Below are positions 26,697 to 33,170 of a DNA stretch of 36,513 nt, one piece after another. The translations under genes and the position numbers were made by a program. The stretch comes from Akkermansiaceae bacterium (GTDB taxonomy: Bacteria; Verrucomicrobiota; Verrucomicrobiia; Verrucomicrobiales; Akkermansiaceae): NCBI GenBank assembly GCA_023253625.1, contig JALRFY010000050.1, forward strand, positions 1 to 36,513, written 5' to 3'. Position 1 is the stretch's first letter. Every line of letters starts with the position of its first letter. A model generated the notes under the pieces. The model worked only from the letters and a program-made list of their open reading frames with translations, made no database searches and was not told the DNA's origin.

Positions 26697-27830
26697 ATGG
26701 CCATCGACAAGCCCCTTTCCATCACCGGTCTTGGTGCCTTGTCCGCATCAGGCAACGATGTGAAATCGCACCACCGCGCCGTGATGGAAAAACACGCGCC
26801 GTTCCGGTCACTGGGTGCTTTGCTGGGAAATGACAGCCCACACGCGCAGCGGCCCGCAGCATGGATCGAGGATCGGTTCCTGCTCACCCACCGCAAGTGG
26901 AGCCCGGCCACGATGGCCGCCCTGCACGCCGCCCGCCAAGCGGTGGCGGATGCCGGATGGACCCACGGCGAGCTGACAGACTCCGCCCTGGTAGTTGGCA
27001 CCAGCCGTGGCAATGCCGCAGGCTGGCTCGCGCCATGGCCGGGCCGGCGGCCATTCAAACTGATGGCCTCATCCAACACCATCCACAGCGAACCCGCCTC
27101 CGCCATCAGCATCGATCTCGGCATCACCGGTCCGAACCATGTGATCGCCAGTGGCTGCGCCGCGGGGCTGGACGCCATCGGCATCGCCATGATGCTTGTC
27201 CGCTGCGGCGCGGCACCGCGCGCCCTCGCAGTGGCCGTGGACCTCCCGCTGGTACCCATGCTGTTGGACGGTTATGCCTCGTCCGGTATTCTATCACGCC
27301 ATCACCAACTCGATCCCTATGCGCCGGAAACCAGCGGCTTCATTCCCGCGGAAGCCGCCGCCGCGATGGCCATCGAGCCCACGGATGCAACGCATCCGCA
27401 GTTGACATTCCATGCCACCAATTCGGACGCCTGCGATCCAGTGGGCATCCCGCGCGATGGCGGGCACACCCCCGCATTGTTCGCCAAATGCGCGGCGCTG
27501 CCCACTGCGGTTTGCCCTCACGCCACCGGCACTGCAGTGCAAGCCGCGGCCGATCCCGCGGCGCTCGCGCGGGTTTTTCCCGAAGCGAAACCCACCTTGC
27601 ACCTGCTCAAACCGTTCCTTGGTCACGCCATCGGTGCCAGCGGCATGCTCGAGACCGTGGTGCTGGCCGCCTTCTTGCGCGAGGGCAAACTGCCACCCAA
27701 TATGCCGGGACTTTATGCCCCCGCGGGATTCCATCTGCCGCAAAACCCATTGCCCGCCCTCGGGCCGCTTGCCAAAATCGCCCACGGCATGGGCGGACAC
27801 AACTCACTGCTCGTCCTCACCCCGCCGTGA
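26697..27830 (+). CDS. Beta-ketoacyl-ACP synthase-like (KAS/thiolase-fold) enzyme
   Basis: Active-site Cys in GPNHVIASGCAAGLDAIG; His motifs CPHATGTAVQAAAD and LKPFLGHAIGASGMLE. Confidence 0.85.
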   Translation: MAIDKPLSITGLGALSASGNDVKSHHRAVMEKHAPFRSLGALLGNDSPHAQRPAAWIEDRFLLTHRKWSPATMAALHAARQAVADAGWTHGELTDSALVVGTSRGNAAGWLAPWPGRRPFKLMASSNTIHSEPASAISIDLGITGPNHVIASGCAAGLDAIGIAMMLVRCGAAPRALAVAVDLPLVPMLLDGYASSGILSRHHQLDPYAPETSGFIPAEAAAAMAIEPTDATHPQLTFHATNSDACDPVGIPRDGGHTPALFAKCAALPTAVCPHATGTAVQAAADPAALARVFPEAKPTLHLLKPFLGHAIGASGMLETVVLAAFLREGKLPPNMPGLYAPAGFHLPQNPLPALGPLAKIAHGMGGHNSLLVLTPP

Positions 27831-28309
27831 AAAAAAACCGACGCATCCTGGTTTCCATCGCTGACCAGAAACTCGTAGTCATCGATGACCATGCCGGCCG
27901 CATCGCCAGCTTCGATGTATCCACCTCGGAAAAGGGCATTGGCTTCGAGGAAGGCAGCTACCGCACCCCCACCGGAAAGTTCCGAATTTGCGAAAAGATC
28001 GGCGACGGCGAACCACTTGGCACGATCTTCAAAGCAAGGAAACCGGTGGGCCTGTGGCATCCCGGCAGCCCGTGCGAGGATGACCTCGTGCTCACCCGCA
28101 TTCTACGTTTAGACGGAATCGATCCCCGGAACCGCAACACACTGCAGCGCTTCGTATACATTCATGGGACCAACAACGAGGCGGGCATCGGACGTCCTGC
28201 CGGGCATGGATGCGTCAGATTGCGCAATATGGACATGATCACGCTCTTCGGAATGGTGGACGTGGACTGCCCGGTGGAAATCCTCCCGCCGTCATGCCTT
28301 CCCGCATGA
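27827..28309 (+). CDS. L,D-transpeptidase (YkuD family), GTG start
   Basis: RRILVSIADQKLVVIDDHAGR, YRTPTGKFRI, active-site YIHGTN...GRPAGHGCVRLRNMDM. GTGA overlap with the upstream KAS. Confidence 0.87.
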   Translation: MKKNRRILVSIADQKLVVIDDHAGRIASFDVSTSEKGIGFEEGSYRTPTGKFRICEKIGDGEPLGTIFKARKPVGLWHPGSPCEDDLVLTRILRLDGIDPRNRNTLQRFVYIHGTNNEAGIGRPAGHGCVRLRNMDMITLFGMVDVDCPVEILPPSCLPA

Positions 28310-28337: not shown

Positions 28338-28494
28338 GCACCATGTCATCACTCATCCCGGACGGATGTCTTGATATAGACGAAACCGCACATCAACCCA
28401 TTCCGCATGAGTATTGCCAAATTATCGCATGCGGCGACAGCATGCAACATTTACACTTGCGGTGCCTGCTCAATCCGATATGAAAAGCCCCGTC

Positions 28495-29061
28495 ATGAGC
28501 ACAAAAAAGAAAGCAGCCTCCAAGAAGGCATCCACCGGTGTACGATATTCCGATGATCTCAAGAAGCAGATTATCGATTTCGTCGAGACATATAACTCAC
28601 AAAACGGACGTGGTGGCCAAAGCGCAGCCACGAAGAAATTCAAAGTCACCCCGCTGACCATCGCGACTTGGCTCAAAGCCGCAGGAGTGAAAAAAACGGC
28701 AAAGAAAGCGACCAAGGCAGCCACCAAAAAGGCCGCAGCTGGAGCCTCCAAGACAAGCATGCGCTATCCTGACGAATTCAAGAAAGAGGTCGTCGATTTC
28801 GTGAACAGCTACAATGAAACCAATGGACGCGGCGGACAGAACCAGGCGACCAAGAAGTTCAATGTTTCCGTCCTCACGGTTTCGTCATGGCTCAAGGCGG
28901 CCGGCGTGAAGGGCCCGGGCCGCAAGTCGCTTGCCAAGAAGGCCACCAAGGTGACCGGCAAGGCGAAAAAGGCAGCCAAAAAGACAGCCCAGAAAAACAC
29001 GAGCGGGGCGATCAACGAGCTTGAAGCCCTCAAGGCAGCCATCCGCAAGCTAATTGATTGA
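28495..29061 (+). CDS. Putative DNA-binding protein: two transposase-type HTH domains with histone-H1-like Lys/Ala-rich linker and tail
   Basis: MSTKKKAASKK..; RYSDDLKKQIIDFVETYNSQNGRGGQSAATKKFKVTPLTIATWLKAAGVKK and RYPDEFKKEVVDFVNSYNETNGRGGQNQATKKFNVSVLTVSSWLKAAGVKG; AKKATKAATKKAAAGASK and KSLAKKATKVTGKAKKAAKKTAQK. Confidence 0.85.
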   Translation: MSTKKKAASKKASTGVRYSDDLKKQIIDFVETYNSQNGRGGQSAATKKFKVTPLTIATWLKAAGVKKTAKKATKAATKKAAAGASKTSMRYPDEFKKEVVDFVNSYNETNGRGGQNQATKKFNVSVLTVSSWLKAAGVKGPGRKSLAKKATKVTGKAKKAAKKTAQKNTSGAINELEALKAAIRKLID

Positions 29062-29089: not shown

Positions 29090-29116
29090 ATGGCCGCTCC
29101 GCGACGGAGCGGCCAT
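29090..29116 (+). terminator. Rho-independent terminator after the duplicated-HTH gene
   Basis: ATGGCCGCTCCG-CGA-CGGAGCGGCCAT followed by TTTC: 12-bp perfect stem between convergent genes. Confidence 0.85.
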
Positions 29117-29118
29117 TT

Positions 29119-29637
29119 TCATTTCCACTCGACCTGTGTGCGCATGTCCATCCAACGCATCGTCTCGCCCTCGAACACGAAGCGACCGTGAAAACCGGTT
29201 TCGGAAAGCAGCAAGGGCATCCAGTGGCGATCGTCCTGCCACATCCGGTGATAGGGAATCCCGTCGATTGCATGCCATAACGGAACCGCCTCGTCGGTCT
29301 CGGTCGGCTCGCCCTCATAAGCGTCGGCCCGATAGACGTGGCAGAGGATGTCCGGGCAATCCGACATTTTAAACCATAACTCACCGACCTTGCGGGGATT
29401 GAGCGGGGTGATCAGAAGTTCCTCGCGGGTTTCGCGGATCACGGCTTCGAGTGCGGTTTCGCCGGGATCGATCTTGCCGCCGGGGCCGTTGATCTTGCCG
29501 GCACCGAGACCGCGTTTTTTCTCGATGAGCAGGATGCGGCCCTCCTTCACGATAAACATGAGCGTGGCGTGCATCCCGGCCTGCCAGGTGGTCCAGTCGA
29601 TGGGTGAGGGCGGCATGATGGGTTCGTCTGATGTCAT
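29119..29637 (-). CDS. Nudix hydrolase (MutT/MTH1-like)
   Basis: Nudix box GGKIDPGETALEAVIRETREELLI; LGAGKINGPGGK; PDILCHVYRADAYEGEPTETDEAVPLW. Confidence 0.9.
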   Translation of the reverse strand: MTSDEPIMPPSPIDWTTWQAGMHATLMFIVKEGRILLIEKKRGLGAGKINGPGGKIDPGETALEAVIRETREELLITPLNPRKVGELWFKMSDCPDILCHVYRADAYEGEPTETDEAVPLWHAIDGIPYHRMWQDDRHWMPLLLSETGFHGRFVFEGETMRWMDMRTQVEWK

Positions 29638-30068
29638 TGGTCCGCTTCCGGATCATACATTCCGCCATAGCCGGGGCGGTAAAGCCGCAGTTCGGGGAAA
29701 ACCCCAGCCATCGCGGTGAAATGTTTGTCCACCGCGTAAACTCTGCATTGGTTCTCCATGGCGATGGTGGCAATGAGCACATCGTTCCAAGGCGCGGTGC
29801 AGCCGCCGGATTTCAGAATCGCGAAGTTGACCGCCGCCTTGCGCCAGATTTTCTGGTCGTTGCGGATGTAAGGCAGGATGTTGCACCAAGCCTGCAGCCG
29901 CTCACGCTCGTCCGGGCGGGCACCGCCCAGGAACTCCATCTCCACCGGGCCGCAGAGCGCGGCTTGAAATTCATCCAACAATCCGCGCACGGCGAGCTTC
30001 ACCGCAGCGTCGCCCTTGAGGCGGTGCATTTCAATCCAAGCACTGGTATCCACTATCACCATGGGCAA
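29634..30068 (-). CDS. vapC: VapC-type PIN-domain toxin
   Basis: VIVDTSAWIEMHR, CGPVEMEFLGG, DVLIATIAMENQCRVYAVDKHFTAMA: the acidic PIN residues are present. Confidence 0.87.
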   Translation of the reverse strand: MPMVIVDTSAWIEMHRLKGDAAVKLAVRGLLDEFQAALCGPVEMEFLGGARPDERERLQAWCNILPYIRNDQKIWRKAAVNFAILKSGGCTAPWNDVLIATIAMENQCRVYAVDKHFTAMAGVFPELRLYRPGYGGMYDPEADQ

Positions 30069-30069
30069 A

Positions 30070-30276
30070 TCAGCGGTCGAAATCCTCGATTTCCTCGTTG
30101 GTCAGCGGATAGTCGCCGAACTCGCCTTCCATCAACTTGCGGCCAAACTCGCGGGCCATCTGGCGGCGGATGTATTCTTTCGCCGCCTTCACCACGGCTG
30201 GCCCTTTCTTCCGTTCCCCGGTGATACGCATGGCGTCTTGCAAAACATCGTCTTCAATGTCGATGGTGATTTTCAT
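30070..30276 (-). CDS. vapB: VapB-type antitoxin
   Basis: MKITIDIEDDVLQDAMRITGERKKGPAVVKAAKEYIRRQMAREFGRKLMEGEFGDYPLTNEEIEDFDR; immediately upstream of vapC. Confidence 0.85.
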   Translation of the reverse strand: MKITIDIEDDVLQDAMRITGERKKGPAVVKAAKEYIRRQMAREFGRKLMEGEFGDYPLTNEEIEDFDR

Positions 30277-30335
30277 GAACGTATTTTTCACTAAATATCA
30301 CTCTTTTCAATAAAAATAATAATATTTTCCCATTT

Positions 30336-33170
<2,835 letters not shown>

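Follow-up and report, generated by a model that had tools for sequence, protein, structure and literature searches.

The closest described relatives of the gene family reported here are the OrfA proteins of IS3-type elements (HTH_Tnp_1, PF01527; for example IS911 OrfA and IS629 TnpE, 2rn7), in which an HTH is followed by a heptad helix. In IS911, the HTH and zipper (HTH+LZ) part of the transposase acts as a dimer that binds two DNA ends and pairs them (PMC2909936). Two HTHs per chain occur in Mos1 and other tandem-HTH transposases and in tandem homeodomains, and Lys/Ala-rich disordered segments are found in linker histone H1, chlamydial Hc1/Hc2 and AlgP-type tails. A similar three-helix layout is seen in the Brinker domain (PF09607) and in CENP-B/pogo HTHs; Brinker and CENP-B are animal proteins. 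Descriptions of chromosome-organising proteins are scarce for the Verrucomicrobiota, and this holds for the genus of the gut bacterium Akkermansia too; our literature searches on Akkermansia or Verrucomicrobia nucleoid proteins found nothing relevant, and the text of the V. spinosum essential-genome paper contains no nucleoid, histone or DNA-binding terms.

We analysed a 36,513-nucleotide stretch of an Akkermansiaceae contig (JALRFY010000050.1; hereafter the window) that carries a gene for a small, very basic protein with two HTHs. A sequence-only reading had proposed a domesticated, duplicated HTH combined with an H1-like tail. Comparison across genomes gives good support to domestication and duplication, with an internal duplication in a fixed chromosomal gene, and places the protein in a so far undescribed family of very basic, small, probably DNA-binding proteins, on which full-text literature searches found no paper.

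Architecture of the window protein

The gene and the parts of its product are as follows.

28495..29061, + strand: gene of the two-HTH basic protein, 188 aa (translation and unit profile)
28495..28542, + strand: basic N-terminal tail, residues 1-16 (structure prediction and composition)
28543..28692, + strand: HTH unit 1, residues 17-66, with predicted helices at 20-37, 41-49 and 53-62 (AlphaFold2, pLDDT about 95)
28693..28761, + strand: Lys/Ala-rich disordered linker, residues 67-89 (pLDDT about 50)
28762..28911, + strand: HTH unit 2, residues 90-139, with predicted helices at 93-110, 114-122 and 126-135 (AlphaFold2, pLDDT about 95)
28912..29004, + strand: Lys/Ala-rich disordered linker, residues 140-170 (structure prediction and composition)
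29005..29058, + strand: short C-terminal helix (GAINELEALKAAIRKLID), the shortened heptad helix of single-unit relatives (prediction and comparison)

Aligned within the protein, units 1 and 2 are identical at 32 of 50 residues, and a profile built from relatives matches each of them at E about 1e-25, so the unit duplication is not a chance resemblance and the two similar domains of the initial reading were borne out. AlphaFold2 predicts two three-helix HTHs at pLDDT about 95, unstructured linkers and a C-terminal helix of about 16-18 residues. The protein has a pI of 10.4 and contains 19.7% Lys and 15.4% Ala, and the Lys-rich linkers between and after the units are as that reading had quoted them, with 7 K/R in residues 67-89, 11 K/R in residues 140-170 and zero D/E in either. 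The resemblance of these segments to H1, Hc1/Hc2 and AlgP-type tails is one of composition only. Membership of the histone H1 or Hc1/Hc2 families was rejected, with no Pfam match at E up to 1, so that "histone-H1-like" describes the make-up of the linkers and not their family.

Pfam and NCBIfam searches found no ligand-binding or catalytic domain in the window protein. A PDB fold search with the predicted models returned nothing below E 0.001, and no solved structure was found by sequence. A search of the window genome found no second gene of the two-HTH kind, making 28495-29061 the sole copy.

Two-unit forms within a single-unit family

We mapped distribution and unit number with the unit profile and found mostly one-unit relatives, with two-unit forms in one branch. 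In the usual family member a single HTH unit is followed by a basic linker and then by a conserved helix of about 36 residues at the C-terminus. The predicted structure of a single-unit relative shows the same HTH and the 36-residue helix at pLDDT about 86-94, and across 37 single-unit members the hydrophobic columns of this helix follow a 3-4 heptad spacing. Four proteins, that of the window and its relatives L129, L124 and L130, combine two units with a C-terminal helix that is only short. The sequence-only reading thus had the duplication right but missed the C-terminal helix and the usual single-unit state of relatives; the heptad helix escaped it because the window protein has lost most of that helix.

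Among sampled genomes, two-unit forms are confined to the window's own genus (of 22 members, 10 have an intact one and 3 have one truncated by a contig end), and they are also present in related metagenome-assembled genomes (MAGs). On a tree of the neighbouring gcvP gene product the two-unit loci form one clade (support 97/94), apart from L152, which was set aside since its HTH frame begins at a contig edge and its unit count is not readable. In a tree of the units themselves, 34 N- and C-units group together (92/88) and L121 falls among the single units. This suggests a second, independent duplication in L121, a candidate that we did not adopt: an AU test does not reject a single origin (p 0.33), and 52 columns are too few. 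Shortening of the C-terminal helix may have arisen more than once, judged from the GcvP tree, which we count against our preferred explanation. The duplication arose late, as a variant within a coiled-coil family of mainly single-unit members, and does not define that family.

Relation to IS3 OrfA and other HTH proteins

Profile comparison of the single-unit members with IS3 OrfA proteins of the same order gave 97.3% over 95 columns, spanning HTH and zipper, and the HTH unit alone gave 95.8% against 11 OrfA sequences across its full length (hhalign). Among control profiles, HTH_3 reached 72-88% over only 21-27 columns and TetR stayed under 1%. The zipper that follows the HTH in OrfA is present in single-unit relatives, and the window protein keeps only the shortened helix. 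The best PDB fold match of a single-unit model is likewise IS629 TnpE/OrfA (2rn7), at an E of 0.015 that is not significant alone. Judged from these profiles, the family shares its layout with IS3-family OrfA and probably its ancestry too. It differs from OrfA in an extra GRGG between helices 1 and 2, long Lys/Ala linkers, a duplicated HTH, the lack of OrfB and IS ends, and a fixed chromosomal slot.

Pfam matches the window protein to BrkDBD (2.3e-9, its best match) and HTH_Tnp_IS630 (7.4e-5), which together with the closeness to OrfA supports the transposase-type HTH of the initial reading. The BrkDBD score is 37.4 bits against a cut-off of 23.4, whereas two single-unit bacterial members fall below it (20.2 and 12.6), and because of these misses the Brinker likeness is probably one of fold. 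The HTH_Tnp_1 model itself scores below cut-off for a single-unit relative. Mos1 and tandem homeodomains gave weak fold matches only, and the units here, unlike theirs, are near copies confined to one branch.

Highly basic tails are also often carried by RNA-binding proteins, and the HTH of a Lys/Ala-rich protein could in principle make RNA or protein contacts, in a ribosome-associated or other such role. We consider this unlikely, given that the HTH retains the family pattern R-Y...GRGG..A..KKF.IS..TI..WLK and resembles that of DNA-binding relatives.

Family distribution

Of 145 genomes sampled from the window's GTDB family (Akkermansiaceae), 110 have a homologue. Of the families sampled, the unit profile matched only its own and one other from the order; among 291 genomes sampled from the phylum it had no match outside its own family. 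An initial scan of genome contigs with a single protein as query had given no match. All 70 named loci in the genome collection come from Verrucomicrobiota, among them Luteolibacter, Haloferula and Akkermansiaceae MAGs, and searches of a phage collection and a plasmid collection found no family copies. No NCBIfam model covers the family, nor does a dedicated Pfam model.

Some genomes (G006, G039, G064, G082 and G108) carry 4-5 single-unit paralogues at other loci; what we take by eye to be an IS66-type transposase lies about 1.2 kb from one paralogue (L044). The basic arms of several relatives (L028, L039, L008 and L110) are strongly repetitive and vary in length, with KTPTAKTPTVK or KAPKAAKAPK motifs that are probably expanding repeats.

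A fixed chromosomal slot

The neighbours that anchor the gene in the window are listed below; the last was named GcvP by recognition of its sequence.

26697..27830, + strand: beta-ketoacyl synthase (KAS) gene, upstream anchor (Pfam and synteny)
27827..28309, + strand: L,D-transpeptidase (YkuD) gene, upstream anchor (Pfam and synteny)
29119..29637, - strand: NUDIX hydrolase gene, convergent downstream anchor (Pfam and synteny)
30336..33170, - strand: glycine dehydrogenase GcvP gene, downstream anchor and species-tree proxy (synteny and tree)

One- and two-unit forms occupy a common slot, KAS-YkuD-SerB-HTH followed by convergent NUDIX and GcvP genes, from which the SerB-like phosphatase is sometimes absent, as in the window. 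Where the flanking DNA reaches far enough, almost all two-unit genes have the NUDIX gene 59-214 bp downstream; L121 and L135 have only the upstream anchors, and some family members (for example L021, L029 and L044) sit at other loci.

A stand-alone OrfA left by a decaying IS3-type element, with no cell function, would account for the OrfA-like HTH and zipper. The syntenic loci, however, have no IS or transposase genes at the slot, with conserved non-IS genes on both sides; the finding that the initial reading had named as able to overturn it, transposase genes or IS ends beside homologues, was not made. OrfB with a DDE domain, terminal repeats and mobility, the marks of an IS3 element, are all absent. 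On synteny we rejected a mobile element or IS remnant, and 28495-29061 is a fixed chromosomal gene. With slot, intact frame, residues and promoter all kept across many genera, and the gene in 110 of the 145 family genomes, this long-term conservation already contradicts a functionless remnant, which we regard as very improbable.

Between the NUDIX and GcvP genes, window positions 29634-30291 hold two genes that we take by eye to be PIN-domain-like and VapB-like partners; the pair is shared only with a close relative (L002/L129) and is a probable toxin-antitoxin insertion. At two loci (L015:1399-3024 and L019:220-1845) YkuD, the SerB-like phosphatase and the HTH lie in one 541-aa frame with no stop. 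We treat a three-part fusion, alongside an internal promoter, as a possibility only, since at both loci the HTH gene retains a promoter of its own.

Promoter, start and terminator

Two control elements flank the gene.

28455..28482, + strand: conserved promoter, a CTTG -35-like element followed about 22 bases on by a -10-like ATATGA/GATATG (orthologue upstream comparison)
29090..29116, + strand: intrinsic terminator with a 12-pair stem, between the HTH gene and the convergent NUDIX gene (terminator scan)

In the window the C of CTTG lies 39 bases before the ATG at 28495, and CTTG is found 36-40 bases before the ATG in 48 of 50 syntenic orthologues, usually preceded by an A/T-rich stretch. This conserved spacing supports a start at 28495 rather than at the in-frame ATG at 28480. 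A generic sigma-70 scan picked up no promoter. The 12-pair hairpin agrees with the terminator that the initial reading had assigned to the gene, and the conserved promoter shows 28495-29061 to be its own dedicated transcription unit. Transcription would start within a few bases of the ATG, leaving a nearly leaderless transcript. The strictly spaced CTTG and near-leaderless start may be a promoter type typical of these bacteria.

A conventional local regulator would bind a specific operator, perhaps at its own promoter or between its neighbours, with the basic linkers only raising affinity. The single gene, its strictly conserved promoter and its fixed slot beside metabolic and cell-wall genes are consistent with such a role, and the IS911 HTH of the same type binds specific terminal repeats. 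We think it possible and lean against it: the window protein has no sensor or effector domain, paralogues of some genomes occur in unrelated contexts, and a k-mer scan of 46 upstream regions against shuffles gave nothing clearly above background except the promoter element. On that scan we rejected a conserved upstream operator.

Proposed function

Pairing of two DNA ends by the HTH and zipper of IS911 suggests a mechanism in which a paired, two-headed DNA binder later gained two heads per chain. Ancestrally, a single HTH would have been carried on a flexible basic arm, and a heptad helix at the C-terminus would have paired two chains, so that each dimer had two heads for DNA. Within a branch of Luteolibacter-like genomes, to which the window genome belongs, the HTH was then duplicated inside the gene, in the same slot, putting two heads on one chain with a flexible, charged linker of H1-like make-up. 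The pairing helix is reduced in the window protein and in three relatives, which would be expected if the covalent duplication had taken over its role. Such a protein would bind DNA with low to moderate specificity, its Lys-rich linkers adding non-specific affinity, and could hold two nearby or looped DNA sites together; its part would be architectural or of nucleoid type, and not that of a regulator that senses a ligand.

Our computations show the duplication, the fixed slot, the single clade, the conserved promoter, the relation to OrfA and the predicted fold; DNA binding, dimerisation, bridging and a nucleoid role we infer. We give an about even chance to a domesticated, OrfA-like dimeric DNA-binding or bridging protein in which duplication supplied two heads per chain. 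The label of nucleoid-associated protein is plausible: like such proteins, the product is small (188 aa), basic (pI 10.4) and without a ligand domain. More tentative, and somewhat short of an even chance, is the fuller reading of an Akkermansiaceae-type, lineage-specific nucleoid family, domesticated from an IS3 OrfA-like protein, that passed from a zipper-paired single HTH to a covalent two-headed bridger with H1-like linkers. Other findings count against our preferred explanation besides the possibly repeated shortening of the helix and the PDB fold search, which gave no match below E 0.001. High expression is not supported by codon adaptation in the window genome, where the gene ranks at an ordinary 62nd percentile (41st, 72nd and 97th in three relatives, high only in the last). 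The HTH gene is also missing from some small-genome members of one genus (that of L021-L025 and L074-L086) and is therefore dispensable there.

If correct, the proposal would add a chromatin protein class not described for Akkermansiaceae-type bacteria. A slot- and promoter-fixed family with natural one- and two-headed versions would offer a direct test of how the DNA-binding module of a transposon turns into a chromosomal protein, and would let one ask whether head duplication replaces dimerisation. In the genus that includes the small genomes, the single-unit gene of every locus examined is immediately followed on its own strand by what we take to be the gene for topoisomerase IV subunit A (parC), a neighbour that at most hints at chromosome work.
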